Shown in pieces: positions 698 through 30,640 of a DNA stretch of 34,434 bases (position 1 is its first letter; each line of letters starts with the position of its first letter). The notes under the pieces were generated by a model that had not been told where the DNA came from, did not search any database, and saw only the letters and a list, made by a program, of their open reading frames with translations. A program made the translations under genes and the position numbers. The DNA is from a virus, in IMG/VR virus record IMGVR_UViG_3300027969_004187, positions 1 through 34,434 of that record; one strand, given 5' to 3'.

Positions 698-1531
698 ATG
701 AAGATTGGTGTAGGTATTATCACTTGTAATAGACAAGACTACTTAACTAATTTATTAACGTCAATTCATCCTTGTAAAGACATTAATGAATTAGTAATTG
801 TTAATGACGGCTCACATATTGATGATATTAATTTTAATAAACCATATTCATATATCCTAAATGATAATAATCTTGGAATAGCTAAATCTAAGAATAAAGC
901 TATGAAACATTTATTAGATACAGGATGTGATTATATTTTTATTATTGAAGATGATACAGTTATTAAAGATACAGATATTTTTAATGCCTACATTACTGCT
1001 TCAAAAGTGACAGGTATACAGCATTTTAATTTCGGTCCTGGTACACCTTTTAACCGAAAGCAAAAGATAACTAATTTTGATTTAAATAATAGACATTTAT
1101 TAGATAATGAATCAACTCCTAATCCGAAAATAACTATAGATTATAGTTTATTAAAAATTGATCTGTATGAACATATCGCAGGCGTATTTAGTTTTTTTAC
1201 AAAGGAAATTTTACAGAATGTTGGATTAAATGATGAACGATTTTATAATGCCTGGGAGCATGTAGAACATACATATAGAATTATTAAAGCGAACGGTCAC
1301 CCTCCGTTTTGGTGGTTTGCTGATATTCATAATAGTGTAAAGTATTTAGAAGTACCATCAGAAGCTATTACTAATAGCTCAACATCAAATAATAAAGAAG
1401 AGTGGTATAAAAATATTCATAAGGGTAGAGAACTATATAAAGAAATTCATAATTTTTATCCTAACATGACACCACATACATCAAAAAATGATGTATTAAT
1501 TAGCCTCAAACAAATAAAACAAATATGTTAA
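698..1531 (+). CDS. Family 2 (GT-A) glycosyltransferase
   Basis: A 277-residue enzyme that would transfer a sugar from a nucleotide donor. The N-terminus has the GT2 pattern: a first strand GVGIITCNR at residues 4-12, NDGS at 36-39 for nucleotide binding, NNLGIAKSKNKAM at 57-69, and the metal-binding acidic motif EDDT at 84-87. Tyr/Trp-rich C-terminal residues (WEHVEHTYR at about 188-196) would form the acceptor side. It has no membrane anchor. It is the first gene of the long + strand carbohydrate locus, and its end overlaps the next start by 7 bases (ATG inside ATGTTAA). No Shine-Dalgarno sequence is seen upstream. The family call is firm; sugar and acceptor cannot be read from the sequence. 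Confidence 0.85.
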   Translation: MKIGVGIITCNRQDYLTNLLTSIHPCKDINELVIVNDGSHIDDINFNKPYSYILNDNNLGIAKSKNKAMKHLLDTGCDYIFIIEDDTVIKDTDIFNAYITASKVTGIQHFNFGPGTPFNRKQKITNFDLNNRHLLDNESTPNPKITIDYSLLKIDLYEHIAGVFSFFTKEILQNVGLNDERFYNAWEHVEHTYRIIKANGHPPFWWFADIHNSVKYLEVPSEAITNSSTSNNKEEWYKNIHKGRELYKEIHNFYPNMTPHTSKNDVLISLKQIKQIC

Positions 1532-2178
1532 ACACTCTATCAGAATTAGCAGACAAATATGCAACAGATAAACGAGATTCAGATCATGGATATGTTACAT
1601 TTTATGATAAACATTTTAATTCATTAAGACATCTATCACTCAATATATGTGAAATTGGTATTCTTAATCACCCTGATAAAAAGAATCGTCCATATGAAGG
1701 TGCATCACTATTAATGTGGAAGGATTATTTTTATAAGTCTGGTATTCACGGTATTGATATAAATGATCATAAGCATCTCGAACAAGATAGAATCCGCATC
1801 TATATTGCAGATCAAGGTAACCGAGAAAAATTACAACAACTATTTAAATCTGCTTTATTAGATATTATTATTGAAGATGGTAGTCACTATATGCACCATC
1901 AACAAATAAGCCTTGGTTGTCTGTTTAAGAACTTAAAACCAGGTGGTATATTTGTTATTGAAGATTTACATACATCACATTTAGATATGGTACCTAATTT
2001 TAGACAAACAACTACGGATACAAACACTCTTGAGATGTTAAAAGATTTTAATATTACAGGTAAGATTGTAAGTAATTACATGACGCAAGAAGAGCAGGAT
2101 TATTTAAATGACAATATATCTAAATGTATTATAGAAGAAGGGCGTATGTCTGAGATAGCATTTATATATAAAAAATAA
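1525..2178 (+). CDS. MycE-like SAM-dependent sugar methyltransferase
   Basis: A 217-residue class I methyltransferase. The pattern matches the macrolide-sugar O-methyltransferase group (MycE/OleY type): EIG at residues 43-45 as the SAM-binding strand, EDGSH at 117-121, a HQQ helix at 125-127, LKPGG at 137-141 and IEDLHTSH at 145-152. In that family the Asp/Glu residues of the last two motifs bind a metal and the His acts in catalysis. It therefore probably O-methylates a sugar of the glycan built by the neighbouring transferases. The start overlaps the preceding gene by 7 bases and the next gene starts 1 base after the stop, so the genes are likely co-transcribed. The acceptor sugar is unknown. 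Confidence 0.8.
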   Translation: MLNTLSELADKYATDKRDSDHGYVTFYDKHFNSLRHLSLNICEIGILNHPDKKNRPYEGASLLMWKDYFYKSGIHGIDINDHKHLEQDRIRIYIADQGNREKLQQLFKSALLDIIIEDGSHYMHHQQISLGCLFKNLKPGGIFVIEDLHTSHLDMVPNFRQTTTDTNTLEMLKDFNITGKIVSNYMTQEEQDYLNDNISKCIIEEGRMSEIAFIYKK

Positions 2179-2179
2179 A

Positions 2180-3595
2180 ATGGATAGCTTAACACTAATA
2201 ACATGCTCTTATAATACACCAGATGTAACATTAACAATGTTAAAATCTTGGATGTCAGTCCATAACAAAACGCAGAGACTGATTGTATGTGATAACTCGA
2301 CTAATGATGATACAAAAAAATTATTAGATGAACATCATATTCCCTATGTAAGCAGACCAGGTATGTCTCATGGTGATGGTGTAAATGAGGCGTTAAAATT
2401 ATGTAAAACAAAATATGCTTTACTTGTAGATACAGACGTTATATTCTTAAAAGATCATAGTAAAATTTTTAATCAGTTTAAAAATTTAAAATTAGCTATT
2501 ATGGGTAAAGTTGAAGGAGACCGTGGAGGTAAATCGATTTATAATCGTATAAATCCTTGGCATTGTTTTATTGATGTTGATCAGATTAGAGAAAATAATA
2601 TTACTTTTTTTGATCAAAAAAGAATGCAAGAAAGTTTTAATACTTCTAAAATATATGATATTGGATCTACGTTTTTACAAGATATTAAAGAATATAAACT
2701 AAAAATAGGTGATATAGATTTATCAAATACGTATTACATACACTTAGAAGGTATGAGTTGGTATAAAAATAAGTATGATGGAACTCAGCCAGATACTGGT
2801 ATTGATTTTGGCGGAACTCATAACAATATAGGTTATGTAAATGCACATAAACAAAAATATCAGAATTTTAAAAACGTAGAGCAGCAATATAAAGATACAA
2901 AAATATCTAATAAGTTTATTTATGAAGAACCAAAACTATTAATAAAATTTCCTACAAGAGGTCGAGTAGAGAAATTCTTTAATACATTAGATTCGTATTA
3001 TAAATTATTGTCTGGTAAAAATAATGTAAAGTTTCTTATTACATGTGATATTGACGACTTAACAATGAATAATGACATTGTTAAGAATAGATTTAAAGCA
3101 TATACAAACTTAGAAGTTATATACGGTAATAGTAAATCTAAAATAGAGGCTATTAACGCTGATGTTGAGCATCAGGATTTTCAAATAGTTTTATTAGCTT
3201 CAGATGATATGATACCTATTGTAGCTGGATATGATTCAATTATCATAGAAAATATGTGTATTTATTTTCCTGATTTTGACGGTGTACTTTGGTTCAATGA
3301 TGGTGTGCAGAGGAATAGACTTAATACACTTTGCATTTTAGGTAAAACATATTATAATAGATTTAATTATATATATAATCCTGAATATAAGTCTCTATGG
3401 TGTGATTTGGAGTTTACATTAGTAGGTAATATACTAGGTAAACAAAAATACTTTGATAACATTATTATAAAACATGAACATCATTCTGTAACTAATAATG
3501 AAATTGATGAGACATATATACAAAATGAGGTTTATGAAAGTGAGGATAAACAAACATTTATAGCAAGAAAAAACAAACAATTTAATATTATATAA
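2180..3595 (+). CDS. Two-domain glycosyltransferase (two GT-A modules)
   Basis: A 471-residue protein that appears to hold two GT-A folds. Residues 1 to ~230 are a GT2-type module: LTLITCSYN at 4-12, VCDNS at 36-40, and the acidic DTD at 84-86 in LLVDTDVIFL. Residues ~251-471 start again with a typical first strand (LLIKFPTRGR at 253-262), carry a second acidic motif SDDM at 341-344, and a later segment with WCDLEFTLVGN. Such fusions usually add two sugars in sequence or make a repeating disaccharide; here that is inference. No membrane segment is present. It starts 1 base after the methyltransferase stop. Confidence 0.75.
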   Translation: MDSLTLITCSYNTPDVTLTMLKSWMSVHNKTQRLIVCDNSTNDDTKKLLDEHHIPYVSRPGMSHGDGVNEALKLCKTKYALLVDTDVIFLKDHSKIFNQFKNLKLAIMGKVEGDRGGKSIYNRINPWHCFIDVDQIRENNITFFDQKRMQESFNTSKIYDIGSTFLQDIKEYKLKIGDIDLSNTYYIHLEGMSWYKNKYDGTQPDTGIDFGGTHNNIGYVNAHKQKYQNFKNVEQQYKDTKISNKFIYEEPKLLIKFPTRGRVEKFFNTLDSYYKLLSGKNNVKFLITCDIDDLTMNNDIVKNRFKAYTNLEVIYGNSKSKIEAINADVEHQDFQIVLLASDDMIPIVAGYDSIIIENMCIYFPDFDGVLWFNDGVQRNRLNTLCILGKTYYNRFNYIYNPEYKSLWCDLEFTLVGNILGKQKYFDNIIIKHEHHSVTNNEIDETYIQNEVYESEDKQTFIARKNKQFNII

Positions 3596-3598
3596 GTA

Positions 3599-4291
3599 AT
3601 GAAAATTAAAGCATATACACTATTTACAGATTCACATAAGAAATTTTTAACTGATTATTTATTACCGACTTTTCCATATCGTGAAGAAATAGAATTAACT
3701 ATATTACATCGACCACAACACTGTAGAACAGCTAGCTTTGAAACAGAAGGCTGGCACGATACAATGCGTGATAAAGTAAATTGTTTTATTGAGGGTATCC
3801 AGCAATGTAATGATAATGAAATCTTTATGTTTATTGATCCAGATATTCAATTCTTTGGAGACTTTTATGATGATATTATTAACAGTCTTAAAGATAAAGA
3901 TGCAGTCTTCCAGAATGATGTTTTCGGCGGAGTTAACACTGGGTTTTTTGCTGTAAAAAATAATAAAAAGGTTCGGTCATTCTTTAAAACAATTCTAGGT
4001 AATCTAGATTCTTTTAGTCAAGAGCAAGTTTTAGCAAATTATTTACTTAATAATAGTAGTCAATTTCCTGCAATAGCTATAGATTGGTCGTTCTTACCAG
4101 CAACATATTGGACATACGGACATATAGCTGCACAACCCGGTACACCTCCAAATCCTTTTAAAGGCAGCTGGACAACAGATGCTCCAGATTTTAATGTACC
4201 AGAAAATATTGTTATGCATCATGCTAATTGGACGGCTGGTATTAATAATAAAATTAAACTACTTAATATTGTCAGAGAAAAACTTTCATGA
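3599..4291 (+). CDS. GT77-like nucleotide-diphospho-sugar transferase
   Basis: A 230-residue soluble GT-A protein resembling the Nucleotid_trans / GT77 group. Visible features are the metal-binding DPD at 80-82 in MFIDPDIQFF, the NTGFFAVK segment at 113-120 (a family hallmark with an 'in this site a new residue' Asn-Thr-Gly-Phe pattern), a QEQ helix at 141-143, and a C-terminal HHANWT at 207-212 where a His usually completes the metal site. It overlaps the next gene by ATGA. GT77 enzymes are best known from plants and other eukaryotes and occur patchily in bacteria. Linkage and sugar are unknown. Confidence 0.7.
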   Translation: MKIKAYTLFTDSHKKFLTDYLLPTFPYREEIELTILHRPQHCRTASFETEGWHDTMRDKVNCFIEGIQQCNDNEIFMFIDPDIQFFGDFYDDIINSLKDKDAVFQNDVFGGVNTGFFAVKNNKKVRSFFKTILGNLDSFSQEQVLANYLLNNSSQFPAIAIDWSFLPATYWTYGHIAAQPGTPPNPFKGSWTTDAPDFNVPENIVMHHANWTAGINNKIKLLNIVREKLS

Positions 4292-5136
4292 GTATTAATT
4301 TTAAAAACTTAAGACCACCAGCTAATTACCCTATATATCCTCCATATCATAAAGGAGATTATCTTGAAGAATATTTTTATAAATTCTATAAGGAAAATAA
4401 AAATGAATTTGATAAAACAGGATATACATTAATTCCTATTTTTTGGACAAATGTTTATATAACGCAGACAAATATTAGACTAATACAACCTTACTTAGAT
4501 GCATTACCTGCTGGTAAATATTTTACTATATCACAGCACGATGATGCTGTTAAAGAAAGACTTCCTGAAAATACATTAAGTTTAGAAGCAGGTGGGAATG
4601 GAAAAGGTATACCCATTCCATTAATTTGTTCACCCTTAGATGAAAAATATACACAACCTGTAGATAAAGAAATTCTTTGTTCATTTATAGGTTCTATAAC
4701 ACATGATATCCGCAATAAAATACATTATAGATATTCATCAGATACAGACTTTCTTTTACGAGGTAAAAACTGGACTCCTTCAGTAAATGATAATGATTTA
4801 AATACTTATATAAATATAACTAAACGTTCAAAATTTACTTTGTGTCCTAGAGGTTATGGTGCACAAAGTTTTAGATTATATGAAGTATTACAATTAACTT
4901 CTGTACCTGTTATTGTGTATGATAAAGAATGGTTGCCCTTTAATGATATGATTGATTGGAATAGTTTTTGTGTACTAATACATGAGAATGAAATAGATAA
5001 TATTAAAGAAAAATTATTAAATATATCAGATCAAAAATATCAACAAATGATTAAAGCAGGTAAACATACATATAAAGAATATTTTACAATGGAAGGTATG
5101 TCAAATAATATTCTTAAAATGTTACAGCGGTTATAA
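4288..5136 (+). CDS. Exostosin-like (GT47-type) glycosyltransferase 1
   Basis: A 282-residue GT-B-type protein. The diagnostic segment is at 186-208: CPRGYG, then SFRLYEVLQLTSVPVI, the nucleotide-sugar-binding part of the exostosin domain (usual pattern C-x-x-G-x-G ... R-x-x-E-x-L ... IPV). Residues ~129-150 (LCSFIGSITHDIRNKI) form the usual strand-turn-helix before it. There is no N-terminal membrane anchor, unlike eukaryotic exostosins, so it acts in the cytoplasm. Its start lies in an ATGA overlap with the previous gene, and the following paralogue begins 1 base after its stop. It is one of four proteins with this motif in the locus. Confidence 0.75.
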   Translation: MSINFKNLRPPANYPIYPPYHKGDYLEEYFYKFYKENKNEFDKTGYTLIPIFWTNVYITQTNIRLIQPYLDALPAGKYFTISQHDDAVKERLPENTLSLEAGGNGKGIPIPLICSPLDEKYTQPVDKEILCSFIGSITHDIRNKIHYRYSSDTDFLLRGKNWTPSVNDNDLNTYINITKRSKFTLCPRGYGAQSFRLYEVLQLTSVPVIVYDKEWLPFNDMIDWNSFCVLIHENEIDNIKEKLLNISDQKYQQMIKAGKHTYKEYFTMEGMSNNILKMLQRL

Positions 5137-5137
5137 T

Positions 5138-6058
5138 ATGATTACAAAAATACACATACCTAACGTACTTAAACAAGATGATCTTCAATGCTTTACTGAA
5201 ATTTTTATTATTATACCTTTTATAAGTCAATCTTTATATACTAGTATAATTAAAAAAGCTAACTGGTGGAATGAAGGATTATTTACAAAGTTATTTTTTA
5301 ATAATCCTATTTTTAATAGTGCATCATTATTAGAATGTGATATAGTATGTATACCATTTAAATATTCTCCTACTGATATACGGATTAATACGATTTGTAA
5401 TGATGCACAAAAATATAATAAAAAAGTCGTAGCGTTTTATAATGATGATTCGATTGAGTCTTTTAAACTACCAGATAATCTTTATCTCTTTAGAACATCA
5501 GCTAATAAATCAAGCTTACTAATAAATGAGCGGATATTTCCTGCGTTTGTTCCAGATCACTCATCTATTAATAATATTTTAAACTCTTCAAATGTTAATA
5601 AGAGTGTAGGATTTTGTGGGCACTCAGAAGGTATAAGAGCAGATATATTAAATAAATTTTATAATATACTTGGTACAGAGAATTGCAACTTTACAATACG
5701 GCCAACATTTTACCATCATACAGGTCAAGTTAATATTAAAACAAGACGAGAATACTTGACAAGTATCTCAAACAATTTATTTACTTTGTGTATACGAGGT
5801 GCTGGCAATTTTTCATATAGATTGTATGAAGTGCTGTGTATGGGAAGAATACCTATTTTAATTGATACAGATACTGCGCTACCTTTTGAAAATATAATAG
5901 ATTGGAAACAGTATATTATTAAAATTAAAGAAAATGAAATTGATCAATTACCTTCTATAATTAATAATTGTAAGATAAAAACTATCGATATACGGAGAAT
6001 GTGGGAGGAATATTTATCACCTGAAGGGTATACTAAAAATTTTTATAGAGATATATAA
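5138..6058 (+). CDS. Exostosin-like (GT47-type) glycosyltransferase 2
   Basis: A 306-residue relative of the preceding protein. The C-terminal half shows the same signature at ~214-240: LFTLCIRGAGNFSYRLYEV followed by MGRIPILI, then a conserved LPFENIIDWKQY segment that matches LPFNDMIDWNSF of the gene at 4288. The preceding SVGFCGHSEGIRADIL (156-171) is the matching strand-turn-helix. The N-terminal half is much more diverged than the C-terminal half, which is expected if donor binding is retained and the acceptor differs. No membrane segment. A 40-base gap follows before the next gene. Confidence 0.72.
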   Translation: MITKIHIPNVLKQDDLQCFTEIFIIIPFISQSLYTSIIKKANWWNEGLFTKLFFNNPIFNSASLLECDIVCIPFKYSPTDIRINTICNDAQKYNKKVVAFYNDDSIESFKLPDNLYLFRTSANKSSLLINERIFPAFVPDHSSINNILNSSNVNKSVGFCGHSEGIRADILNKFYNILGTENCNFTIRPTFYHHTGQVNIKTRREYLTSISNNLFTLCIRGAGNFSYRLYEVLCMGRIPILIDTDTALPFENIIDWKQYIIKIKENEIDQLPSIINNCKIKTIDIRRMWEEYLSPEGYTKNFYRDI

Positions 6059-6098
6059 TATAAGATTGCATTCTATATATTAAAAATTAAATCATAAT

Positions 6099-6896
6099 AT
6101 GAGCGTTTACGTTAATCACATCTCAGGCTGTAGACATGGAAATCAGTTATGTCAGTATGTAGTTGGTAGAATTATATCTGAGAAGTTAAAATTTAAATTA
6201 TTTGGTATAGATCAAAATCATAGAGAATTTTCTATGAATGGATTCGATCTTAATTACAATCAACCAGAATTTACATCTTATGATACACCTATACAAAGAA
6301 TAGGTACAAGCAGTAATTATAATTACTCTACGACTACAGAATGGGCACATCCAGACTTTGATCTCGAAGCTATATGTAACGATACTACTCCACGTAAAAT
6401 TATTTTAGAAGGATTTTTTCAAAGACAAAAATTCTTTATACCTTACAAAGAAAAAATTAAAGAATGGTATAATTTTATTACATATGATACACCTACTGAT
6501 CATGCAGCTGTTCATATACGATTAGGTGATTTAAGATCATCAAATCATCCTGACCTACTACCTATCGAATATTATCAACAAGCATTAGATAATCTCAATT
6601 TTAATAGACTCACTATATGTACTGATACACCTACAGATAGTGAATACATTCTGCCGTTAATTAAAAAATATAATGCACAAATTTTTACAGGTGATGAACG
6701 AGAGACAATTTGTTTTCTCGCTTCACATAATAACTTAGTATTAAGTGTCGGTTCGTTTAGTTTTTGGGCAAGCTTATTTAGTGAAGGTCAAAATATTATT
6801 AATGCTATACCTACAAAAGGTAATAATCGAATCGATCCAGAAAACGGCGTTGATCTATTAATACAAAGTCCAAGCCATAAATACATAACTTTATGA
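6099..6896 (+). CDS. GT11-like alpha-1,2-fucosyltransferase
   Basis: A 265-residue protein of the GT11 type, which uses GDP-L-fucose or a related GDP sugar. Visible motifs are GNQL at 14-17 near the N-terminus (usually GNQLFQYA), LEGFFQR at 103-109 (the family's L-x-G-Y-F-Q segment), HIRLGD at 139-144 (the family's H-x-R-x-G-D GDP-binding motif) and a late SVGSFSFWASLF segment at ~216-227 matching the usual S-x-S-T-F-S-W-W region. The GDP-mannose 3,5-epimerase in the same locus would supply GDP-L-galactose, a close analogue of GDP-L-fucose, so this enzyme may use it; that is inference. Start has no Shine-Dalgarno. Overlaps the next gene by ATGA. Confidence 0.75.
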   Translation: MSVYVNHISGCRHGNQLCQYVVGRIISEKLKFKLFGIDQNHREFSMNGFDLNYNQPEFTSYDTPIQRIGTSSNYNYSTTTEWAHPDFDLEAICNDTTPRKIILEGFFQRQKFFIPYKEKIKEWYNFITYDTPTDHAAVHIRLGDLRSSNHPDLLPIEYYQQALDNLNFNRLTICTDTPTDSEYILPLIKKYNAQIFTGDERETICFLASHNNLVLSVGSFSFWASLFSEGQNIINAIPTKGNNRIDPENGVDLLIQSPSHKYITL

Positions 6897-7681
6897 AATT
6901 AATAAAAGGCACATCCAAAGGATTTTTTGGAGTTGCAAATGATACTGCAAGACACATTTCACAGTGCATACAAAATAACGAAGAGTGGTTTATCGACTGG
7001 GGAGATGAAACTCTATATCATGATTCTACTTACGGGGATAACGTTTGGGAATATTATTTTAAACAACCATTTAAGAAGAACACACCGTATCAAGTAGTAC
7101 AAGACTATACCGAATTAGTATTATTAAAAGATAGTAGTTTTAGATCTACAATGAATTATATCTATACTAATTATTTTATTCTTAACGAGGATACAGAAAG
7201 TAAAATATTTAATAATTATAAATTATTTGAAGAAAATAAAGTATTAGGAGTTCATATAAGACGTACAGATAAATTTTTAGTAGGAATGTATGGTACTACA
7301 TATAGACATACACCTGTTGATTTAGAATTATTTAAAGCGGAAATAGATATGGTAGTAAATGACTACGATTATATATACCTCGCAACAGATTGTACAGATA
7401 CTGTTAAATATATAAAAGACCTATATGGTAAAAAAGTAATATGTAATATTAATGCAATACGAGGTAATAATACAACCAGTATTCATAATAACTTTAAAAA
7501 TCTATCTGGCTATATAAAAGGCCTTAATGTACTTACAGATGTAATTTATTTGTCAAAATGCAAACATTTAATAAGATCATCATCTAATGTATCTATAACA
7601 TCTCTCTATCTCAATTTAGATTTGACTTGGCTTAATGTTAACGAAAAATATCATAACGACTCTGAACAAGAAATTCTATGA
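6893..7681 (+). CDS. GT23/NodZ-like fucosyltransferase-fold protein
   Basis: A 262-residue protein with the GDP-binding motif HIRRTDK at 121-127 in VLGVHIRRTDK, the signature of the alpha-1,6-/O-fucosyltransferase superfamily (FUT8, NodZ, POFUT). After it come YIYLATDCTD (~155-165) and an RSSSNVSITSLYL segment (~225-238), matching the superfamily's later S/T-D and 'SS..S..A..L' motifs. It directly follows a GT11-like gene by ATGA overlap, so two GDP-sugar transferases with a shared mechanism sit together. No membrane anchor. Donor could be GDP-L-fucose or GDP-L-galactose; not decided by sequence. Confidence 0.65.
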   Translation: MKLIKGTSKGFFGVANDTARHISQCIQNNEEWFIDWGDETLYHDSTYGDNVWEYYFKQPFKKNTPYQVVQDYTELVLLKDSSFRSTMNYIYTNYFILNEDTESKIFNNYKLFEENKVLGVHIRRTDKFLVGMYGTTYRHTPVDLELFKAEIDMVVNDYDYIYLATDCTDTVKYIKDLYGKKVICNINAIRGNNTTSIHNNFKNLSGYIKGLNVLTDVIYLSKCKHLIRSSSNVSITSLYLNLDLTWLNVNEKYHNDSEQEIL

Positions 7682-8445
7682 AAACTAATTGGCCTACTTT
7701 TAACGAATCGATGAAGTTATCTTTAGAGTATAATAATTCTAGAACTCAACAGAGTAAATGGGATTTATTAATTAATAGATATAACATAATAAAAGAGACA
7801 ATATCCGTACAACCTAAAATACCAAAAATTATACATCAAATTTGGTTAGGTGGTAATATGCCTCCTAGAGAACAAGAACTATGTGAGCAAGTTAAAAACT
7901 TTGCGCAAGATAATGGTTGGGAGTATTTTTTATGGTCAGATAAAGATATTAATAAATTAAGTGATTTTAAAAATATAAATGAGTGTAATAATACACCGAA
8001 TAATGGGCAAAAATCAGATATTTTAAGATCTCAAATTTTATATGAACGTGGCGGTATATATCTAGATACAGATTTTATATTGTTAAAAATGTTCGATAAT
8101 TTATTAGATTTAGATTTTTTTTGCGGGGTAGCGTATGATGGTTATCCGAGTTTATTTAACGGTCTTATAGGATCTACTCCAGGTAATAAAGTAGCAGCAG
8201 ATATGTTAAATTTAGATATGCAGGTAGGTTATAGTGACGGTATGGATGTTATTAATACAACTGGACCTTATTTATTAACAAGAAAAGTCTTTAAACATAT
8301 TGAAGAGTTTAATAATATGTTAGTTTTACCTGTATCTTTCTTTTACCCCTTTCCTAATACTGACATTAATAAGCAACCTGATTATAAAGTATATATTCAA
8401 CCTGAAACAATCGCCTGTCATTTATGGGCAGGATCTTGGATGTAA
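7678..8445 (+). CDS. GT32-type glycosyltransferase (DXD sugar-binding region)
   Basis: A 255-residue GT-A enzyme of the Gly_transf_sug / GT32 family. The family pattern is clear: IPKIIHQIWLGG at 48-59, SDILRSQILYERGGIYLDTD at 113-132 with the DXD at 130-132 that binds metal and the nucleotide sugar, and a later HLWAGSW end typical of the family's C-terminal His-x-x-x-x-S-W. Related enzymes add mannose, galactose or glucose to surface glycans. The start lies in an ATGA overlap with the preceding gene, and the next starts 6 bases after the stop. No membrane segment. Confidence 0.85.
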   Translation: MKTNWPTFNESMKLSLEYNNSRTQQSKWDLLINRYNIIKETISVQPKIPKIIHQIWLGGNMPPREQELCEQVKNFAQDNGWEYFLWSDKDINKLSDFKNINECNNTPNNGQKSDILRSQILYERGGIYLDTDFILLKMFDNLLDLDFFCGVAYDGYPSLFNGLIGSTPGNKVAADMLNLDMQVGYSDGMDVINTTGPYLLTRKVFKHIEEFNNMLVLPVSFFYPFPNTDINKQPDYKVYIQPETIACHLWAGSWM

Positions 8446-8451
8446 AATATT

Positions 8452-9321
8452 ATGAATATAGATAATTTTATTACAGGAGAGAGATTTCAAGCATTAGCAG
8501 ATGTTTCTATTATACCTGAAGGTGAAGCTGTAGGGGAAAGTAACTGTGATTTTGTAGTTAAACAGCAGATAAATAATAATTACAATACATTTTATTACAA
8601 CAATTATACAGCGACATTACCTGATTATGTTCAAAACGCACGAATAATATTTGTAAATACATGGACTTTAGATAAGTTTTTTAATACTATTTTTCCTTTA
8701 TTAAAAAATAAATATATTTTTATATCGCATAACTCTGATTCTGCTTTCACTTCTACTTATGCTCATTATTTAGATAGTGGTAAAGTATTAAAATGGTATA
8801 GTCAAAATATAGCATGTAATCACACAAAATTATTTGCTATACCTATAGGTATCGCAAATCAACAATATTCACACGGTAATTTAGGTTTATTAAAACAAAT
8901 AATTGATACTTCACATAGTAAAGAATATCTAGCATATAAAAACTTCGATATATATACTAATTTTCAAATAAGAAGTCATATAGATCATATAACTACACAA
9001 AATGGTATACCTATGAATAATAGAGTAGATCAACCTAGTTATCTAACTAATTTAGCTAAATGTATTTTTTGTATAAGCCCACCTGGGAATGGAGTCGATT
9101 GTCACAGAGTTTGGGAATGCTTATATTTAAAAACAATACCGATTATAAAATACAACGATAGCTTTATACAATTTAAACATCTACCTATATTATTTATAGA
9201 TGATTGGAGTACTGTGACAGCAGAATTTCTCAATAAGGCATCAGTTAATTTTCAAGCAAACTGGAAAAGTAACTTAACAGAGTTAAATATGTTAGACTGG
9301 AAAGATAAAATTTATGATTAA
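8452..9321 (+). CDS. Exostosin-like (GT47-type) glycosyltransferase 3
   Basis: A 289-residue protein. It carries the exostosin-type signature at 207-232: CISPPGNGVDCHRVWECLYL then KTIPII, with Pro-Gly-Asn-Gly replacing Arg-Gly-x-Gly. Residues 86-100 (NKYIFISHNSDSAF) and 120-140 (IACNHTKLFAIPIGI) match the usual order of strands in this group, in which a protein-bound nucleotide sugar is held between two Rossmann halves. Soluble. Overlaps the next gene by 8 bases. It is a diverged member of the four-protein set; family confidence is good, reaction unknown. Confidence 0.68.
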   Translation: MNIDNFITGERFQALADVSIIPEGEAVGESNCDFVVKQQINNNYNTFYYNNYTATLPDYVQNARIIFVNTWTLDKFFNTIFPLLKNKYIFISHNSDSAFTSTYAHYLDSGKVLKWYSQNIACNHTKLFAIPIGIANQQYSHGNLGLLKQIIDTSHSKEYLAYKNFDIYTNFQIRSHIDHITTQNGIPMNNRVDQPSYLTNLAKCIFCISPPGNGVDCHRVWECLYLKTIPIIKYNDSFIQFKHLPILFIDDWSTVTAEFLNKASVNFQANWKSNLTELNMLDWKDKIYD

Positions 9322-10081
9322 CAAAATATGTACTGTGCTTATAACAAATGATGCTTATTTTAATAGATTGATACAAACACTTAATAATATATTATCTTAC
9401 GACTATCAAGGTGATATATGTATTGTTATAGGTGATGATTTATTAAACTCAGATAAATTGAATCACTTTCTATTAAAATTAAGTAATATTACTATAAAAC
9501 ATTTTCCTGATATTACGTTTACTGAGGAATTTAATAATAAATTTTATTCATTAAACCGTGAGGAATTCTGGTCACAAAAAAAATTCCAATATCATAAATT
9601 AAATCTTTTTGATACTTTCTTTAAACAGTGGGATTATATATTTTATATAGATTCAGGAGCTAAGATATACAGCTCTATAATGCCTATTATTAACGCCAAA
9701 AAGAAAGATAAATTTTTAGCACATTCAGATGCATATCCAGGATATGCATGGAATCTTAAAGTACAATTTATAGAAGAAGAACCTATATTTAACGACTTAT
9801 CTAAAAAATATAATTTTGATATAAATTATCCACAAACAACAATTATGTTATATGATACATCTATTATAGACTCTAATACATTTACTGATTTAGTAGAGCT
9901 TGCTGAAGAGTGTAAGATTTCAAAGACAAATGATCAAGGTATAATTGCTCTATATTTTACTAATATTAAACCTCTTTGGGAGCAAATCCAGCTAGAGGAC
10001 AAACATACTTGGTTTTATGATTTTGAGCTAAGACCAACTAAGTTAAATAAACCACACATAATGTTAAAACGAGGTATATGA
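9314..10081 (+). CDS. Probable GT-A glycosyltransferase, family not certain
   Basis: A 255-residue soluble protein. It starts with a GT-A-like strand (KICTVLITND at 4-13), has a Lys/Leu helix and then YIFYIDSGAKI at 108-118, where DSGAK takes the place of a DXD motif, and an NDQGII segment at ~205-210 that often follows in GT8- and GT77-related proteins. The C-terminal HTWFYDFELRP could carry the metal-binding His. Only one Asp remains of the DXD, so metal dependence is uncertain. It sits inside the glycosyltransferase run and overlaps both neighbours (8 bases before, ATGA after), which supports the role more than the sequence alone. Confidence 0.55.
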   Translation: MINKICTVLITNDAYFNRLIQTLNNILSYDYQGDICIVIGDDLLNSDKLNHFLLKLSNITIKHFPDITFTEEFNNKFYSLNREEFWSQKKFQYHKLNLFDTFFKQWDYIFYIDSGAKIYSSIMPIINAKKKDKFLAHSDAYPGYAWNLKVQFIEEEPIFNDLSKKYNFDINYPQTTIMLYDTSIIDSNTFTDLVELAEECKISKTNDQGIIALYFTNIKPLWEQIQLEDKHTWFYDFELRPTKLNKPHIMLKRGI

Positions 10082-10929
10082 ATAATCAAACGTATATGAA
10101 TCAACGAGTAGGTATAATTTGTGATTTAAACTGGGTAAAATCACCGTCTATGTCTAATTACTATCATGCTTTATGTAATATTTTTGATAATGTTAAACTA
10201 GTAAATAGTGTAGAAGATCTTAATGATATAGAGTTGTTGTTTATAGGTAATGATCATTTTGTAACACATAAATTAATATGGCATAACGATATTTTTATCA
10301 ATATTTGTAATGAAAAAAATATTAAAGTATGCGTGTATACAGCAGAAAATATACATCACAAAATATATCCACATAATGTTGAAACACAACGTAAGTTAGA
10401 ACGGTTTGATAATTTGTATCAACGCGTAATAGATCCAGATGATGCTATCATTTTAAATAAAAAAGTAGCAAGATGTATGTATTCAAAATATTATAAAGAT
10501 AATATTCTAATACCTGAACAAAAATTAAATAAATGCGTTTTTATTGGATTCATGTATGACCATCGTCGGAGTTTAATAGACGAACTCAGACAGACAATAG
10601 ATATTGATGTTGTAGAACCTATTGAGTACTGGCAGGAATATATGCAGACTTTAGCAAAATATCGATTTGTATTGTCACCTAACTCGTATGTAGCGAATTG
10701 CTTTCATTTAAAATTTTATGAAGCGTTATTAGTAGACTCTATTCCTATACATCAAGTATATGATAACACATTAGAATATTACCCTATTGAAGCGAATTAC
10801 CAAGATGCGTTATTTTTTAAAACAGCAAACGAGGTACCAGATTTAATTAAAAATTGTAGCTTAGAAAAAAGTTATAATAAGCCTTGGCTAGAGGAGGAAT
10901 TGCTTGATTTTTTTAAAGATTGTAATTAA
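10078..10929 (+). CDS. Exostosin-like (GT-B) glycosyltransferase 4
   Basis: A 283-residue protein resembling the exostosin/GT10-like GT-B group. The segment 194-225 (KYRFVLSPNSYVANCFHLKFYEALLVDSIPI) has the expected order of a nucleotide-sugar site: a strand, a loop with Ser-Pro-Asn, a Lys-Phe-Tyr-Glu-Ala helix and an Ile-Pro strand. Residues 152-166 (KCVFIGFMYDHRRSL) are the matching strand-turn-helix seen in the other three members. The first ATG lies in an ATGA overlap; a second ATG 6 codons later is also possible. It ends the first tight gene run; a 33-base gap follows. Sugar unknown. Confidence 0.6.
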   Translation: MNNQTYMNQRVGIICDLNWVKSPSMSNYYHALCNIFDNVKLVNSVEDLNDIELLFIGNDHFVTHKLIWHNDIFINICNEKNIKVCVYTAENIHHKIYPHNVETQRKLERFDNLYQRVIDPDDAIILNKKVARCMYSKYYKDNILIPEQKLNKCVFIGFMYDHRRSLIDELRQTIDIDVVEPIEYWQEYMQTLAKYRFVLSPNSYVANCFHLKFYEALLVDSIPIHQVYDNTLEYYPIEANYQDALFFKTANEVPDLIKNCSLEKSYNKPWLEEELLDFFKDCN

Positions 10930-10962: not shown

Positions 10963-11718
10963 ATGAAAGAACTAATCGAACAAATTGTTAAATTATCTAA
11001 CACAAGTAAAGAGGGTCATATAGCTAGTTCTTTATCTATATTAGATATTTTATATATTCTGTATAAAGATTTTATAACTAATACAGTAGAAAAAAATTTA
11101 GGTAATCGCTTTATATTAAGTAAAGGTCACGCCTCATTAGCTTATTATGTAATATTAAATGTATTTAATCTTCTAGAGGAACCATTAGAAAATTTTTGTA
11201 AATTTGATAGCTTAATAGGCGGACACCCCAGTGATAAGATTAATGCTGTAGACGCTTCAACTGGTTCGCTAGGTCACGGATTACCAATAGCTATAGGAAT
11301 GGCAATGGGGTATAAAATATTAAAAAATTCTAACCATATTTATTGTTTAATTGGTGATGGTGAAATGAATGAAGGTACTATTTGGGAATCATTACTATTA
11401 GCATCAAATCATAATTTAAATAATTTAACCTGTATTTTAGATTATAATCATTCAAATGATAGAGCTTTAAAGCTTGATAATATTTCTAATAAAATAAATG
11501 CTTTTAATTGGAATTGCATTGAAATAGATGGACACAATCAAGATCAAATAAAAAGCAGTCTAAGTATAAAGCATGACAATAAACCCACCTTCATTATTGC
11601 AAACACGATAAAAGGTAAAGGTATATCATGTATGGAAAATAGTCCAGAATGGCATCATAAATTTCCTAATAATATAGAATTACAACAGATCTTAACAGAA
11701 CTATATGTGTACAAATAA
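10963..11718 (+). CDS. Transketolase, N-terminal (thiamine-diphosphate-binding) subunit
   Basis: A 251-residue protein equal to the first domain of transketolase. Motifs: SKGHASLAYY at 53-62, GGHPS at 86-90, GSLGHGLPIAIGMA at 101-114, and the thiamine-diphosphate motif GDGEMNEG at 131-138 closing with Asn in LDYNHSND about 30 residues later. Its partner domain is the separate gene at 11761, so the two should form a split enzyme as in archaea and some bacteria. Transketolases move a two-carbon ketol unit between sugars. In this sugar-nucleotide setting it may make a special ketose or a branched sugar; that is inference. A 7-bp hairpin, GTGTACA/TGTACAC at 11707-11725, spans the stop codon. Confidence 0.9.
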   Translation: MKELIEQIVKLSNTSKEGHIASSLSILDILYILYKDFITNTVEKNLGNRFILSKGHASLAYYVILNVFNLLEEPLENFCKFDSLIGGHPSDKINAVDASTGSLGHGLPIAIGMAMGYKILKNSNHIYCLIGDGEMNEGTIWESLLLASNHNLNNLTCILDYNHSNDRALKLDNISNKINAFNWNCIEIDGHNQDQIKSSLSIKHDNKPTFIIANTIKGKGISCMENSPEWHHKFPNNIELQQILTELYVYK

Positions 11719-11760
11719 TGTACACTGTAATATACACGGAGATGCAATTTTTTTACGATT

Positions 11761-12639
11761 ATGAGAAAGCAATTTATTCAAACATTAAAAACTATTCTAT
11801 ATACTAATGAGAAAACTGTTTTACTCTTAGGTGATATAGGCGTATTTGGATTTCGAGACGAACTTAAAAATATTTCAAATAGAGCCTATAATATTGGTAT
11901 ACTAGAACAAAGTACAATAAGCGTCGCTGCTGGTATGGCAAAAACCGGTCTTATACCTTTTGTACATACAATTGCTCCTTTTTTAGTTGAAAGATCTTTT
12001 GAACAACTAAAGATAGATTTTGGTTATCAAAATTTAAATGGTAATTTTATAAGCGTAGGCGCTTCATACGATTATGCAGCTCTAGGATGTACTCATCACT
12101 GTCCTGGTGATGTTGGGATTTTAACTAACATACCAAATATGCAAATCGTAACGCCAGGAACCTCGCAAGAATTCGACAAACTGTTAATATCTAGTTACAA
12201 TAACGACTCTCCTACGTACTATAGACTAAGTGAAACAGAAAATACAAATACTCAAAACGTTGAATTCGGTAAAGGTGTTGTTATAAAGCAGGGTAAAGAG
12301 GCTACTATTATTTGTTTTGGTACAATGTTAGATAATGTTTATAAAGCTTGTGAAGATCTTGATGTTACTATATTATATTATACTACTATTTTACCTTTTG
12401 ATGTTAACTTACTCAAAGAATATAGTAATGAAAAAATTATTATTTGTGAACCTTTCTATGAAGGTAGCGTAAATCATATTATTACTAAAGCGCTTCAATA
12501 TGAAAAATATACTATTTTTAACATTGGTATACCGAGACAGTTTTTAACAAACTATGGAATTAAACAGCAACACGATGTACACTTAGGTCTTGATTTTAAA
12601 GGTATAGCATCTAAAATTAAATTATGCATAAACTCATAG
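11761..12639 (+). CDS. Transketolase, C-terminal (pyrimidine-binding) subunit
   Basis: A 292-residue protein equal to the middle and C-terminal domains of transketolase. NIGILEQ at 44-50 holds Glu49, the residue that activates thiamine diphosphate, followed by STISVAAGMAKTGLIPFVHTI, a typical family stretch. Later segments (FISVGASYDYAALGCTHHCPGDVGIL, then a C-terminal FNIGIPRQF) match the expected domains. With the 10963 product it gives a complete but short enzyme (about 543 residues together, against about 660 for a fused bacterial transketolase). It overlaps the next gene by 16 bases, tying it to the sugar epimerase that follows. Confidence 0.9.
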   Translation: MRKQFIQTLKTILYTNEKTVLLLGDIGVFGFRDELKNISNRAYNIGILEQSTISVAAGMAKTGLIPFVHTIAPFLVERSFEQLKIDFGYQNLNGNFISVGASYDYAALGCTHHCPGDVGILTNIPNMQIVTPGTSQEFDKLLISSYNNDSPTYYRLSETENTNTQNVEFGKGVVIKQGKEATIICFGTMLDNVYKACEDLDVTILYYTTILPFDVNLLKEYSNEKIIICEPFYEGSVNHIITKALQYEKYTIFNIGIPRQFLTNYGIKQQHDVHLGLDFKGIASKIKLCINS

Positions 12640-13649
12640 AGACTGAAGTACAAAGTATAATCGACACTATCGACTTTACACCTCTTAAAAATAAAAGCGT
12701 ACTTATTACAGGCGCTTCTGGTATAATAGGTTTATATTTAGCTGCATCACTTAAACGCGTTCGTAAAGAACTTAATATTAGTATTTCCGTTTGGACATAT
12801 AGTAATATACCCACATACTTACAACCTATTTTTGAAGAGTGTAAAATAATTTGCGGAGATATTACAGATATAAAAAACTTTATAAACCTACCTAAATATG
12901 ATTGTATAATTCATGCTGCAGGGTACGGTCAGCCTTTAAAGTTTGTTAGAGATAAAATTAAAACAATTAAAATAAATACAGAAGCTACTATCAATTTATT
13001 AAATCTTCTTACCGATGGTGGTAAGTTTTTGTTTATAAGTTCTAGCGAGATATATAACGGCATTGAACAAACTAACATTGATGAGGATATGATGGGTAAT
13101 ACAAATACCAATCATTTTAGATCATGTTATATTGAGAGTAAAAAGTGTGGTGAATCTATTTGTCATGCATACGTTGATACAAATTATAATGTTAAAATAG
13201 CTCGTTTATCATTAGCGTATGGTCCGGGGACACGGTTAGATGATGAGAGAGTTTTAAATAATTTTGTTAAAAAAGGATTGACGGAAAAAAATATTGCGCT
13301 TCTTGATCATGGCGAAGCTATCCGTACATACTGTTATATAACTGATGCGGTAGAAATGTTATGGAATATTTGCTTGTATGGTAAATATGTTGTTTATAAT
13401 GTAGGAGGAATTTCTAAAACTTCAATTTACGATTTAGCTGCAACTATTGGCAAGAATGTTTCGAAAAATATAATTCTACCTGAACGGCAGCAACCCCTTT
13501 ATGGTAATCCTAAAATAGTTAATGTAAGCTGTTCGCGATATACACTTGAATTTAATAAACATAACTTTGTACCGCTTATTATAGGTGTCGATAATACAAT
13601 TAAATGGTATAAAAATTTACTTAATTACTCAACAATAAAAAGTGATTGA
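12624..13649 (+). CDS. SDR-family nucleotide-sugar epimerase/dehydratase
   Basis: A 341-residue extended short-chain dehydrogenase/reductase. TGASGIIG at 29-36 is the NAD-binding glycine motif, HAAGYGQP at ~96-103 the cofactor strand, SSS at 138-140 and Tyr168-x-x-x-Lys172 (YIESK) the catalytic triad, and ARLSLAYGPG a typical product-side loop. The overall order is closest to UDP-glucuronate decarboxylase and dTDP-glucose 4,6-dehydratase types. It lies between the transketolase pair and a methyltransferase, which suggests a pathway where a 4-keto sugar is made and then modified; the exact reaction is not readable. Confidence 0.82.
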   Translation: MHKLIETEVQSIIDTIDFTPLKNKSVLITGASGIIGLYLAASLKRVRKELNISISVWTYSNIPTYLQPIFEECKIICGDITDIKNFINLPKYDCIIHAAGYGQPLKFVRDKIKTIKINTEATINLLNLLTDGGKFLFISSSEIYNGIEQTNIDEDMMGNTNTNHFRSCYIESKKCGESICHAYVDTNYNVKIARLSLAYGPGTRLDDERVLNNFVKKGLTEKNIALLDHGEAIRTYCYITDAVEMLWNICLYGKYVVYNVGGISKTSIYDLAATIGKNVSKNIILPERQQPLYGNPKIVNVSCSRYTLEFNKHNFVPLIIGVDNTIKWYKNLLNYSTIKSD

Positions 13650-13679: not shown

Positions 13680-14591
13680 ATGAAAGTTACAATTGAGCAA
13701 ATAGAAGATATCTTAGGCTTTAAATTTGAGCCTACGGATACAGCACAATACGAGCAATTTAATCTAAGTTATGAAAACTTAACTAGTAAAGAATATGAAG
13801 AATATCTAATCAATGTTATTAATATTTTAACAGAAGAAATAGTATATTCCGGTGAACATCGTATTGCAGATTGGGAAAAAGGTTGGGGAGAGAATCTTAA
13901 TAACTTTATCAAGACAAAAGATATTTTTGAACTGGTACCTAAATATCATAGTAAGAAAAGTTTGGTACGATGGCAGCAAGAAATTATTAAACCACATGAT
14001 AAGAAATTCGATTATCTTATACACACCATATTCGTAGATAGTATTATTAAACACTATTTAAAGGATCTAGATAATGTTTTTGAATTTGGTTGTGGTCCTG
14101 CATATCACCTTGTAAGACTTTCAGGTCAATTACCAGCAATTAAATTTTATGGTTTAGATTGGGCTAAAGCTTCGCAGGAACTCATACTCGCAATTAATAA
14201 TAAATTAGATAAAGATATTACAGGCTTTAATTTTAATTTCTTTAAACCTGATAATACTATTGATATACCTGCCAATAGCGGAATTTACACTATTGCAGCC
14301 CTTGAGCAAGTAGGCGACAACTTTAAACCTTTTGTTGATTTCTTACTTAAAAAAAATCCTGCTTTATGCGTTCATCTAGAACCTATTGATGAGTTACTGG
14401 ATAATACTAATCTTATTGATAATTTATCAATACGTTATTTCCGTAAAAGAAATTATCTCAAAGGCTTTTTACCGTACCTCGAAAAACTAGAACGAGAAGG
14501 GGTAATAGAAATTGTTAAGAAGCAAAGAATTTTTTCTGGTAGTTATTTTATCGAAGGACATTCTCTAATCGTTTGGAAGAAAAAACAATAA
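13680..14591 (+). CDS. Class I SAM-dependent methyltransferase
   Basis: A 303-residue protein. The SAM-binding motif is VFEFGCGPAYH at 133-143, followed by FYGLDW at 156-161 with the acidic end of strand 2. Residues 1-130 are a mostly helical N-terminal domain that I do not recognise. The C-terminal part ends with an HSLIVWKK strand. Because the gene stands between an SDR sugar dehydratase and an RmlC epimerase, a C- or O-methyltransferase acting on a nucleotide sugar is the likely role, but it is far shorter than known NDP-hexose C-methyltransferases (~410 residues) and lacks an obvious zinc-binding Cys cluster. Confidence 0.7.
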   Translation: MKVTIEQIEDILGFKFEPTDTAQYEQFNLSYENLTSKEYEEYLINVINILTEEIVYSGEHRIADWEKGWGENLNNFIKTKDIFELVPKYHSKKSLVRWQQEIIKPHDKKFDYLIHTIFVDSIIKHYLKDLDNVFEFGCGPAYHLVRLSGQLPAIKFYGLDWAKASQELILAINNKLDKDITGFNFNFFKPDNTIDIPANSGIYTIAALEQVGDNFKPFVDFLLKKNPALCVHLEPIDELLDNTNLIDNLSIRYFRKRNYLKGFLPYLEKLEREGVIEIVKKQRIFSGSYFIEGHSLIVWKKKQ

Positions 14592-14592
14592 T

Positions 14593-15159
14593 ATGAATCT
14601 TACATTCAGCTCTACAGATTTACTTGACGTTATACTCATACACTCATCATCCTTTGAAGATACAAGAGGGTGGTTGAGAGAGACATATAATAAAAATGAA
14701 TTTTATAAAAACGGTATAAAAGAAAATTTTATACAAGAAAAAAATTCATTTTCAAAACCAAACGTGTTACGTGGACTACACCTTCAAAAAGAACCTAAAG
14801 GTCAAGGTAAGCTAGTAAGATGTACATCAGGGAGTATATTCGATGTTGTTGTCGATGTACGCGTTAATTCAGCTACTTACGGTAAGTGGATAGGAGTAGA
14901 ACTTACAGATAGCAACGGTTATCAACTTTATATACCACCTGGTTTTGCGCATGGATTTGTTGTTACTAGTAGTACAGGCGCTATGTTTAATTATCATATT
15001 ACACATAATGACTTTAGTAAAGAGCATGACGGTGGTATATATTTTAATGATAAAACAATAGGTATAAATTGGCCTGTAGATGTAGATCAAATGATCATTT
15101 CAGAAAAAGATAAAGCCTTACCTACTTTAACCGAATTTTTTCAGTATGAAAATAGATAA
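14593..15159 (+). CDS. rmlC: RmlC-like dTDP-4-dehydro-sugar 3,5-epimerase
   Basis: A 188-residue cupin that epimerises 4-keto nucleotide sugars at C3 and/or C5. Motif positions agree almost exactly with Salmonella RmlC: FEDTRGW at 21-27, RGLH with the base His63, GKLVRC with Lys73, PPGFAHGF at 115-122, and Tyr134 standing for the acid Tyr133. Asp173 in SEKDKA matches Asp170. The usual second tyrosine pair (Tyr138/139) is replaced by an Asn-Asp-Phe stretch with a one-residue insertion, and Lys134 by His, so substrate use may differ. Starts 1 base after the methyltransferase stop and overlaps the next gene by 14 bases. No RmlA, RmlB or RmlD is in the window. Confidence 0.88.
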   Translation: MNLTFSSTDLLDVILIHSSSFEDTRGWLRETYNKNEFYKNGIKENFIQEKNSFSKPNVLRGLHLQKEPKGQGKLVRCTSGSIFDVVVDVRVNSATYGKWIGVELTDSNGYQLYIPPGFAHGFVVTSSTGAMFNYHITHNDFSKEHDGGIYFNDKTIGINWPVDVDQMIISEKDKALPTLTEFFQYENR

Positions 15160-15849: not shown

Positions 15850-16830
15850 ATGAAAACAGCGTTAGTATTAGGAGCAGGAGGATTTATTGGTAATCATTTA
15901 GTTAATCGACTTAAAGCAGAAGGATATTGGGTACGTGGTGTAGATTTAAAATATCCTGAGTATCAAGAAAAATCTAATGCAGACAGTTTTATAGTAGGTG
16001 ATCTTAAAGAAATTAACTTTATAAATAGCATATTTTATAATCCGTTTCAAAAAAACTTATCAGATAACGGCTTTGATGAAGTATATCAATTAGCAGCTGA
16101 TATGGGTGGAGCAGGATATATTTTCTCTGGAGAAAATGATGCAAATGTAATGCATAATTCTGCTATTATTAATCTTAATGTTGCTGATGCAGCAGTAAGA
16201 TATAGAGTACAGAAGCTCTTTTATTCTTCATCTGCCTGTATGTATCCAGAACACAATCAACTGGATCCAAACAATCCCGACTGTTCAGAAGAATCTGCTT
16301 ATCCAGCGAATCCAGATAGTGAGTATGGATGGGAAAAACTCTTTAGTGAAAGATTATTTTTAGCATATAAACGTAACTATAACTTAAATGTTCGTATAGC
16401 GAGATTTCATAATATTTTTGGACCACTTGGAACCTGGAAAGGTGGTAAAGAAAAAGCACCAGCAGCTATCTGCAGAAAAGTTATTGAAGCTACAAATGAA
16501 ATTGAAATTTGGGGTGACGGTAAACAAACACGCTCTTTCTTATATATTGATGAATGCATTAACGGTATTAGACGTCTAATGGAATCTGAATTTAGCGGAC
16601 CTGTTAATATTGGTTCAGAAGAAATGGTAACAATTAACGATCTAGTTGATATGGCATGTAGTTTTGAGAATAAAACTTTACAACGTAATTATAATACTAA
16701 TGCACCGGTCGGAGTAAGAGGACGTAACTCATGTAATAAAAAAATTCAGCAAGAATTAAACTGGGCACCTAATTATCAGTTAATTAAAGGTCTTGAAAGT
16801 TTATATTTTTGGATAAAAACACAGCTTTAA
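15850..16830 (+). CDS. gme: GDP-mannose 3,5-epimerase
   Basis: A 326-residue extended SDR enzyme that converts GDP-D-mannose to GDP-L-galactose (with GDP-L-gulose as by-product). It matches plant GME along its whole length: GAGGFIG at 8-14, AADMGGAGY at 82-90, SSSACMYPE with the catalytic Cys130, EYGWEK with Tyr159 and Lys163, RFHNIFGPLGTWKGGKEKAPAA with Lys202, QTRSFLYIDEC, VNIGSEEMV and GVRGRNS. All catalytic residues known from the plant enzyme are kept. It probably feeds the GDP-sugar-type transferases at 6099 and 6893. A 32-base gap lies before it, a 36-base gap after. The gene symbol is the plant one. Confidence 0.9.
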   Translation: MKTALVLGAGGFIGNHLVNRLKAEGYWVRGVDLKYPEYQEKSNADSFIVGDLKEINFINSIFYNPFQKNLSDNGFDEVYQLAADMGGAGYIFSGENDANVMHNSAIINLNVADAAVRYRVQKLFYSSSACMYPEHNQLDPNNPDCSEESAYPANPDSEYGWEKLFSERLFLAYKRNYNLNVRIARFHNIFGPLGTWKGGKEKAPAAICRKVIEATNEIEIWGDGKQTRSFLYIDECINGIRRLMESEFSGPVNIGSEEMVTINDLVDMACSFENKTLQRNYNTNAPVGVRGRNSCNKKIQQELNWAPNYQLIKGLESLYFWIKTQL

Positions 16831-30614: not shown

Positions 30615-30640
30615 ATAGTTGGTTGGTATTAAGTATACAT

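Follow-up and report, generated by a model that had tools for sequence, protein, structure and literature searches.

A three-gene cassette in a phage genome fragment probably directs the synthesis of a branched nucleotide sugar for a surface glycan. The fragment, IMG/VR virus record IMGVR_UViG_3300027969_004187, was analysed over its whole length of 34434 bases and is called the window below. Three intact open reading frames (ORFs) encode TKN and TKC, the two halves of a split thiamine diphosphate (ThDP) enzyme of transketolase (TK) type, and SDR1, an extended short-chain dehydrogenase/reductase (SDR). From their sequences, TKN/TKC would act as a C2 ligase and SDR1 as a ketoreductase; the exact sugar is proposed with less confidence than the pathway.

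In the proposed pathway, TKN and TKC together would form an enzyme of the transketolase superfamily that has abandoned pentose-phosphate chemistry. It would ligate a hydroxyacetyl (glycolaldehyde) C2 unit onto the ketone of a nucleotide-linked keto-sugar; the donor of this unit may be hydroxypyruvate or some other ketose without phosphate. At loci with Gmd and ColD (GDP-4-keto-6-deoxymannose 3-dehydratase), GDP-4-keto-3,6-dideoxymannose would serve as acceptor. Ligation would create a tertiary alcohol and give an eight-carbon sugar branched at C-4. SDR1 would then use NADPH to turn the branch ketone into a 1,2-dihydroxyethyl group, and phage glycosyltransferases would place the branched sugar in a surface glycan. 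The donor, the acceptor, the order of steps and the glycan destination are those that we infer, and so is the window phage's own acceptor, since its clade carries the methyltransferase-like protein MT5 and RmlC for ColD. This reading is preferred because the trio is conserved, Gmd and ColD are found near it, the acceptor pocket is replaced, bacterial carriers have a second TK_N, SDR1 is similar to HS5.17 of Campylobacter jejuni, and NTP_transferase genes are rare.

The genes, their conservation, their neighbours and the pocket substitutions are direct observations. A first-pass annotation of the window had described both halves of a split transketolase, which together carry the GDG...N motif and the catalytic Glu, with a 16-base overlap between its second half and an SDR. 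Both points were confirmed. The motif residues align with D155, N185 and E411 of Escherichia coli TktA, whose numbering is used throughout; Transketolase_N lies on one chain and Transket_pyr and Transketolase_C lie on the other, over the Pfam cut-off, as in the split transketolase superfamily. The TKC and SDR1 ORFs do overlap (Table 1), which from the sequence probably indicates translational coupling. When the window was compared with its closest relative (L053), the ratio of nonsynonymous to synonymous changes per site (pN/pS) was 0.17 for TKN, 0.25 for TKC and 0.28 for SDR1. These values are rough, as synonymous sites are close to saturation, and being low they point to purifying constraint on all three genes.

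A first scan of viral contigs yielded 10 loci with TKN identity of 56–78%. Scans with a TKC alignment gave 42 bacterial loci (GTDB genomes) and 44 viral loci. After removal of L052, L093 and L094 for low TKC score, 83 loci (41 bacterial, 42 viral) were used for conservation counts, and removal of near-identical viral loci (L056, L057, L058, L063, L064, L066, L088) left 76 dereplicated loci. For the tree, L038 and L090, which have no full TKN or TKC, were left out and the window was added, giving 75 leaves. The bacterial carriers include Patescibacteria, Verrucomicrobia, Desulfobacterota, Omnitrophota, Pelagibacter, Methylophilaceae, actinobacteria, Clostridia and others. TKN accompanies TKC at 40/41 bacterial and all 42 viral loci, and SDR1 does so at 40/41 and 40/42; among the viral loci, a full SDR1 is missing from L090, whose contig stops inside TKC, and from L071, which has a degraded fragment. 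SDR1 lies immediately 3′ of TKC at 36 of the 41 bacterial and 41 of the 42 viral loci (the L071 fragment included). The two genes overlap at 33/41 and 37/42 loci respectively, some of the bacterial overlaps being inflated by upstream start choice. The trio is thus a real cassette, widely shared by phages and many bacterial phyla. Among INPHARED phages, the best TKC matches (best 10 of 23 records) show about 29% identity over about 85% and lie in unannotated records; our guess is that many of the INPHARED records with TKC matches may be bacterial contamination.

The ThDP site is kept throughout this family, referred to here as the glycan TK family. D155 and N185 were present in 68/68 TKN members, E411 in 73/73 and H473 in 72/73 TKC members. 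The active-site histidines are kept as well, His66 being Gln in 4/68; the TKN of the window has His26, His66, His100 and His261 along with D155 and N185, and Cys for R91. The acceptor pocket is replaced. The TKC of the window carries H461G, D469L and R520E, and in the family H461 is Gly and D469 is Leu in 72/73 TKC members (one gap each), and R520 is Glu or Asp in 72/73 (one Ser). None of the 68 TKN members has Arg at position 91 (C 41, G 12, A 10, S 3, T 1, gap 1). In 17 fused and four split housekeeping TKs taken from the same genomes as controls, H461, D469, R520 and R91 were all kept (21/21). H461, D469 and R520 fall in the same columns as in TktA in a profile–profile alignment; the S385 column shifts between alignments and was not used as evidence.

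In E. coli TK, according to PMC5073344, D469 forms a salt bridge with R91 and S385 binds phosphate, and the variant S385Y/D469T/R520Q accepts aromatic aldehydes, phospho-sugars being impeded. Of the three positions mutated in this variant for bulky unphosphorylated aldehydes, two (D469 and R520) are replaced in the glycan TK family as well. In the cassette the salt-bridge partners at 91 and 469 sit on separate chains, TKN and TKC. The loss of both partners, together with an acid at 520, fits an acceptor other than a sugar phosphate.

Neighbouring genes point to a nucleotide keto-sugar. Gmd and/or a His-type ColD was found within 10 kb at 40/76 dereplicated loci, as against 0/20 housekeeping-TK loci of the same bacterial genomes (Fisher p 4e-6, kinship of the loci ignored); SDR1 and MT5 were also absent from these 20 loci. 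Both TKC flanks reach 5 kb at 56/76 loci, so that these neighbour counts are minimum values. One phage group has the gene order RmlC-like, TKN, (methyltransferase), TKC, SDR1, DegT, Gmd. One phage DegT protein (L004) and one bacterial DegT protein (L023) have the solved ColD structure (2gms) as best match, with E 4e-64 and E 1.4e-69 respectively. The His that in ColD stands in place of the pyridoxal phosphate (PLP) lysine is shared (HH motif) at 33 of the 34 loci with a ColD call above 440 bits; the remaining one, L041, has a long ORF and no motif match. Searches for viral Gmd and ColD were run on 34 viral loci out of 44, after L090, L093, L094 and near copies had been set aside. The phage Gmd proteins mostly scored about 376–413 bits against TIGR01472 (cut-off 415), with five records above the cut-off, and a Gmd match better than E 1e-100 was obtained in 20/34 records. 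With the window added, just 3/35 viral records had NTP_transferase, and the trio therefore seems to act on an already activated sugar.

The first-pass annotation had proposed searching for the pair in bacterial surface-polysaccharide loci, and it is indeed present there. In some bacteria (L023) an O-antigen/teichoic-type ABC export gene adjoins the cassette, and in the annotated isolate Azospirillum sp. TSA2s the genes for Gmd, an oxidoreductase, a CoA-transferase-like protein, TKN, TKC, a methyltransferase and GT61 are consecutive. No SDR is shown directly 3′ of TKC in the annotation of this isolate; its TKC has Gly at 461, Asp at 520 and, in this alignment, keeps Asp at 469.

The MT5 gene lies near the trio at 26/41 bacterial and 14/42 viral loci (40/83). 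ColD and MT5 are almost exclusive: of the 75 leaves, 25 have only ColD, 36 only MT5, three both and 11 neither. On the TKN+TKC tree, the ColD/MT5 state requires at least 12 changes over the 61 exclusive leaves; when the states were shuffled 500 times, 19.6 changes were needed on average and never fewer than 14. The state thus tracks the tree in part, yet has been switched often. These distributions would fit MT5 acting on the same sugar position that ColD deoxygenates. The window is of the MT5 type, inside a phage clade with support 1.00.

Profile comparison of SDR1 with the Protein Data Bank (PDB) gave HS5.17 (8v4g) as the best match (151 bits), followed by human UDP-xylose synthase (UXS; 141 bits). 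The AlphaFold2 (AF2) model of SDR1 has a predicted local distance difference test score (pLDDT) of 95, with a helix (2–15) preceding the Rossmann fold. It matches 8v4h with Z 37.1 and a root-mean-square deviation of 2.3, 319 residues being aligned from residue 1, and UXS (2b69) with Z 36.8, which is a tie; Foldseek ranked UXS first. The model thus predicts an HS5.17-like fold with the N-terminal helix. HS5.17 reduces CDP-6-D-fructose, converting HOCH2-CO- to HOCH2-CHOH-, and its N-terminal helix is unusual (PMC10918830). The Arg pair and Tyr/Lys of HS5.17 are conserved in SDR1; identity is about 24%, the substrate of HS5.17 is an open-chain CDP-ketose, and it has Met/Glu where SDR1 has Ser/Glu. 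SDR1 carries the motifs S-x-S-E and YxxxK, with Ser141 and Glu142 each present in 55/56 members. Asp or Glu at the end of strand 2 was found in 0/56, so SDR1 is read as using NADP(H).

A reading in which SDR1 acts first is raised by its UXS-like motifs. SDR1, being UXS-like or dehydratase-like, would supply a nucleotide-linked 4-keto pentose or hexose as acceptor; TKN/TKC would add the C2 unit, and another enzyme would reduce the branch. The near-equal profile and fold matches to UXS, and the S-x-S-E and YxEGKR motifs found in both, speak for this order. It would also give an acceptor to loci without Gmd and ColD, such as that of the window, and EvdS6 of the everninomicin pathway is reported to be a decarboxylase tied to a C-4 branched sugar. 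SDR1 is, however, still present where Gmd and ColD already make the ketone, and the lack of an acidic residue at the end of strand 2 points to NADP(H) as cofactor, whereas UXS recycles NAD+. The Ser/Glu pair is likewise found in a reductase, GDP-4-keto-6-deoxymannose reductase (RMD), which has Ser/Glu at the key position and carries out no dehydration (PMC10918830). We consider this order of steps unlikely.

Several observations weigh against C2 branching followed by reduction. R358, which we take to be a phosphate ligand in transketolase, is kept in 73/73 TKC members. D469L and the loss of R91 also occur in plasmid-borne split TKs beside sugar kinases (Rhizobium TH2 and a Listeria record), which keep S385 and R520 and are sister to the glycan TK family on the tree; as these have a catabolic context, D469L alone proves nothing. 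H461 and R520 are lost too in Streptomyces plasmid TKs and in Rhodococcus fascians FasC, which belong to other pathways and branch inside the glycan TK family or close to it on the tree. No sugar-nucleotide genes are annotated around the S. clavuligerus plasmid TK or FasC. The pocket signature thus denotes an enzyme not of pentose-phosphate metabolism, and by itself does not denote sugar branching, which is proposed because of the neighbour genes and not because of the pocket alone. Neither Gmd nor ColD lies within 10 kb at 36/76 loci. The 34 kb window has no ColD-type DegT, nor Gmd among the ORFs scanned, and the contigs of L053 and L054, its two closest relatives, have no Gmd and no full ColD; in these relatives a methyltransferase takes the place of Gmd/ColD. 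SDR1 is nearly as close to UXS as to HS5.17 and shares STSE and YxEGKR with it; it may not be a simple reductase. The idea of the first-pass annotation, that a C2 unit is transferred to a keto sugar to give a branched one, therefore stands in part. Co-location with Gmd/ColD, a pocket that now looks unsuited to sugar phosphates and a relative of SDR1 that reduces a hydroxyacetyl ketone support it; the exact acceptor, with Gmd and ColD not seen in the window, is a proposal.

Transketolase reactions are reversible, and the sister clade consists of catabolic-looking split TKs beside sugar kinases. TKN/TKC could shorten a longer keto-sugar or debranch one by removing a C2 unit; alternatively, activation might follow the synthesis of an unusual free ketose or of a chain-extended sugar. 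Such a role is very improbable given the scarcity of NTP_transferase and the activated keto-sugar already provided by Gmd and ColD at many loci. More remote still is an ordinary auxiliary metabolic gene boosting pentose-phosphate metabolism during infection and placed near glycan genes by chance: phages carry pentose-phosphate genes, and the TK fold has an intact ThDP site, but the pocket is replaced in nearly all scored members, the linkage to SDR and sugar genes is kept across phyla, and another TK_N is encoded elsewhere in 38/42 bacterial genomes (exceptions G003, G008, G012, G031), so this assignment was rejected. A heptose route, in which the TK would serve sedoheptulose-7-phosphate, is a further possible reading.

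Other enzyme classes were rejected as well. As predicted from sequence, the ThDP/Mg site and catalytic Glu of canonical transketolase (EC 2.2.1.1) are present and its sugar-phosphate/acceptor pocket is not. TKC scores 93 bits with the dxs profile compared with 61 bits for TK, yet remains far below the dxs cut-off, and N185 and H261 are present in 66/66 members where E. coli 1-deoxy-D-xylulose 5-phosphate (DXP) synthase, Dxs, has Glu and Phe. A YerE-like enzyme would be a single chain with TPP_enzyme domains; the trio has two chains with transketolase domains, and TPP_enzyme_C reaches just 25 bits on TKN. In an alpha-keto acid dehydrogenase pair of the AviB1/AviB2 type, E1_dh would be expected, for which TKN scores 25 bits against 111 bits for Transketolase_N.

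The nearest parallel in chemistry is yersiniose, where C-4 of a nucleotide 4-keto-3,6-dideoxy sugar receives a C2 unit through the ThDP enzyme YerE, on the way to a surface polysaccharide (PMC12247030 and PMC4753412). YerE belongs to the decarboxylase superfamily, with pyruvate as donor and CDP-4-keto-3,6-dideoxyglucose as substrate, whereas the trio has a split transketolase, GDP instead of CDP at the Gmd loci, and probably a hydroxyacetyl instead of an acetyl branch. Branching of lipopolysaccharide sugars is credited to YerE-like enzymes (PMC12247030), and the ketoreduction of yersiniose is given as uncharacterised as of 2016 (PMC4753412). In the miharamycin and amipurimycin clusters of Streptomyces, a split TK has been proposed to transfer a hydroxyacetyl unit to a keto sugar, along with an oxidoreductase; 13 such candidate TKs, all from Streptomycetes, were listed and none had been characterised in vitro (PMC12247030). 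These clusters are for antibiotics, unlike the surface-glycan loci of the trio in phages and many bacterial phyla; the Streptomyces plasmid TKs nest near the glycan TK family, and the annotated one lies outside any sugar cluster. The best PDB match of TKC is the split TK of Carboxydothermus hydrogenoformans (6yaj), which has two chains and the same domain split, but keeps His, Asp and Arg at positions 461, 469 and 520. In titles and abstract openings from the open PMC literature, which leaves subscription journals mostly uncovered and makes this a weak negative, no source apart from the review PMC12247030 describes a split transketolase at an O-antigen, capsular or phage glycan locus. Apulose-4-phosphate transketolase, for which the same literature gave no paper, is a precedent for a tertiary alcohol. 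The Rhizobium and Listeria split-TK operons are at most candidate apiose operons.

More generally, and tentatively, we propose a class of transketolases that accept GDP-keto-sugars through a swapped phosphate pocket. Together with a reductase they would supply phages, Patescibacteria, Verrucomicrobia and other carriers with surface glycans that contain octoses branched at C-4 by a 1,2-dihydroxyethyl group, and exchange of ColD and MT5 would vary C-3. If true, phages and bacteria alike would use transketolases to make branched sugars for surface glycans, with many natural enzymes available for study. According to PMC12247030, none of the TKs proposed to act on ketones has been characterised in vitro; candidates can be picked from the glycan TK family by its clear residue signature. 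Phages may then carry a pathway for a sugar undescribed in glycans, which could bear on superinfection exclusion and glycan variety.

The glycan-locus setting claimed by the first-pass annotation was borne out in the window by the glycosyltransferase families upstream of the trio and by the RmlC and GDP-mannose 3,5-epimerase (SDR2) homologues downstream (Table 1), where a GT25 gene is also found by Pfam. The Pfam scan gave no match for the last two genes of the upstream run (9314, 10078), nor for MT5 of the window, whose AF2 model (pLDDT 93) matches methyltransferase folds with Z of about 15.

Table 1. Features of the cassette and the surrounding glycan locus in the window.
Feature	Position	Strand	Evidence
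TKN, N-terminal (ThDP diphosphate-binding) half of split transketolase-type enzyme, 251 aa	10963..11718	+	Pfam Transketolase_N 111 bits, E 6.6e-32
TKC, pyrimidine-binding/C-terminal half, 292 aa, catalytic Glu49	11761..12639	+	Pfam Transket_pyr 68 bits, Transketolase_C 28 bits
SDR1, extended SDR, 341 aa, proposed branch-ketone reductase	12624..13649	+	Pfam Epimerase 124 bits
TKC/SDR1 overlap, 16 bases	12624..12639	+	ORF coordinates
Run of glycosyltransferase-like genes upstream of trio (GT2, Nucleotid_trans, GT47, GT11, Gly_transf_sug, others)	698..10929	+	Pfam
MT5, S-adenosylmethionine (SAM)-methyltransferase-like protein	13680..14591	+	Predicted fold
RmlC-type nucleotide-4-keto-sugar 3,5-epimerase	14593..15159	+	NCBIfam TIGR01221 208.7 bits (cut-off 155.75)
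SDR2, GDP-mannose 3,5-epimerase homologue	15850..16830	+	phmmer against PDB 2c59 (Arabidopsis enzyme), E 3e-91, 309 bits

The presence of the GDP-mannose 3,5-epimerase homologue inside a phage glycan locus is an observation in its own right. The locus is closed by a DUF366 protein (E 2.3e-22) at 16867–17439.

Among relatives of the TK, FasC (L157, R. fascians pFiD188, 7001–7891) and a Streptomyces TK beside a gene resembling nonribosomal peptide synthetases (L153, S. clavuligerus plasmid, 9992–10897) have lost the phosphate pocket, and their reactions may be unusual. A divergent TKN/TKC pair lies in a glycosyltransferase locus of a Desulfobaculum bizertense plasmid (L156, 9142–10819); the pair has Asn, Gln and Gln at the positions of His26, His66 and His100 and is possibly altered or inactive.

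Further along the window, two ORFs overlap (30623–31408 and 31308–32612) and have similar N-terminal parts, as judged by eye from their translations; one has an HNH-like end and the other a methyltransferase-like end. Positions 33250–34434 have a G+C content of 0.55, compared with 0.27–0.39 elsewhere, and a long minus-strand ORF is open at the window end; this high-G+C stretch may be a chimeric assembly end.

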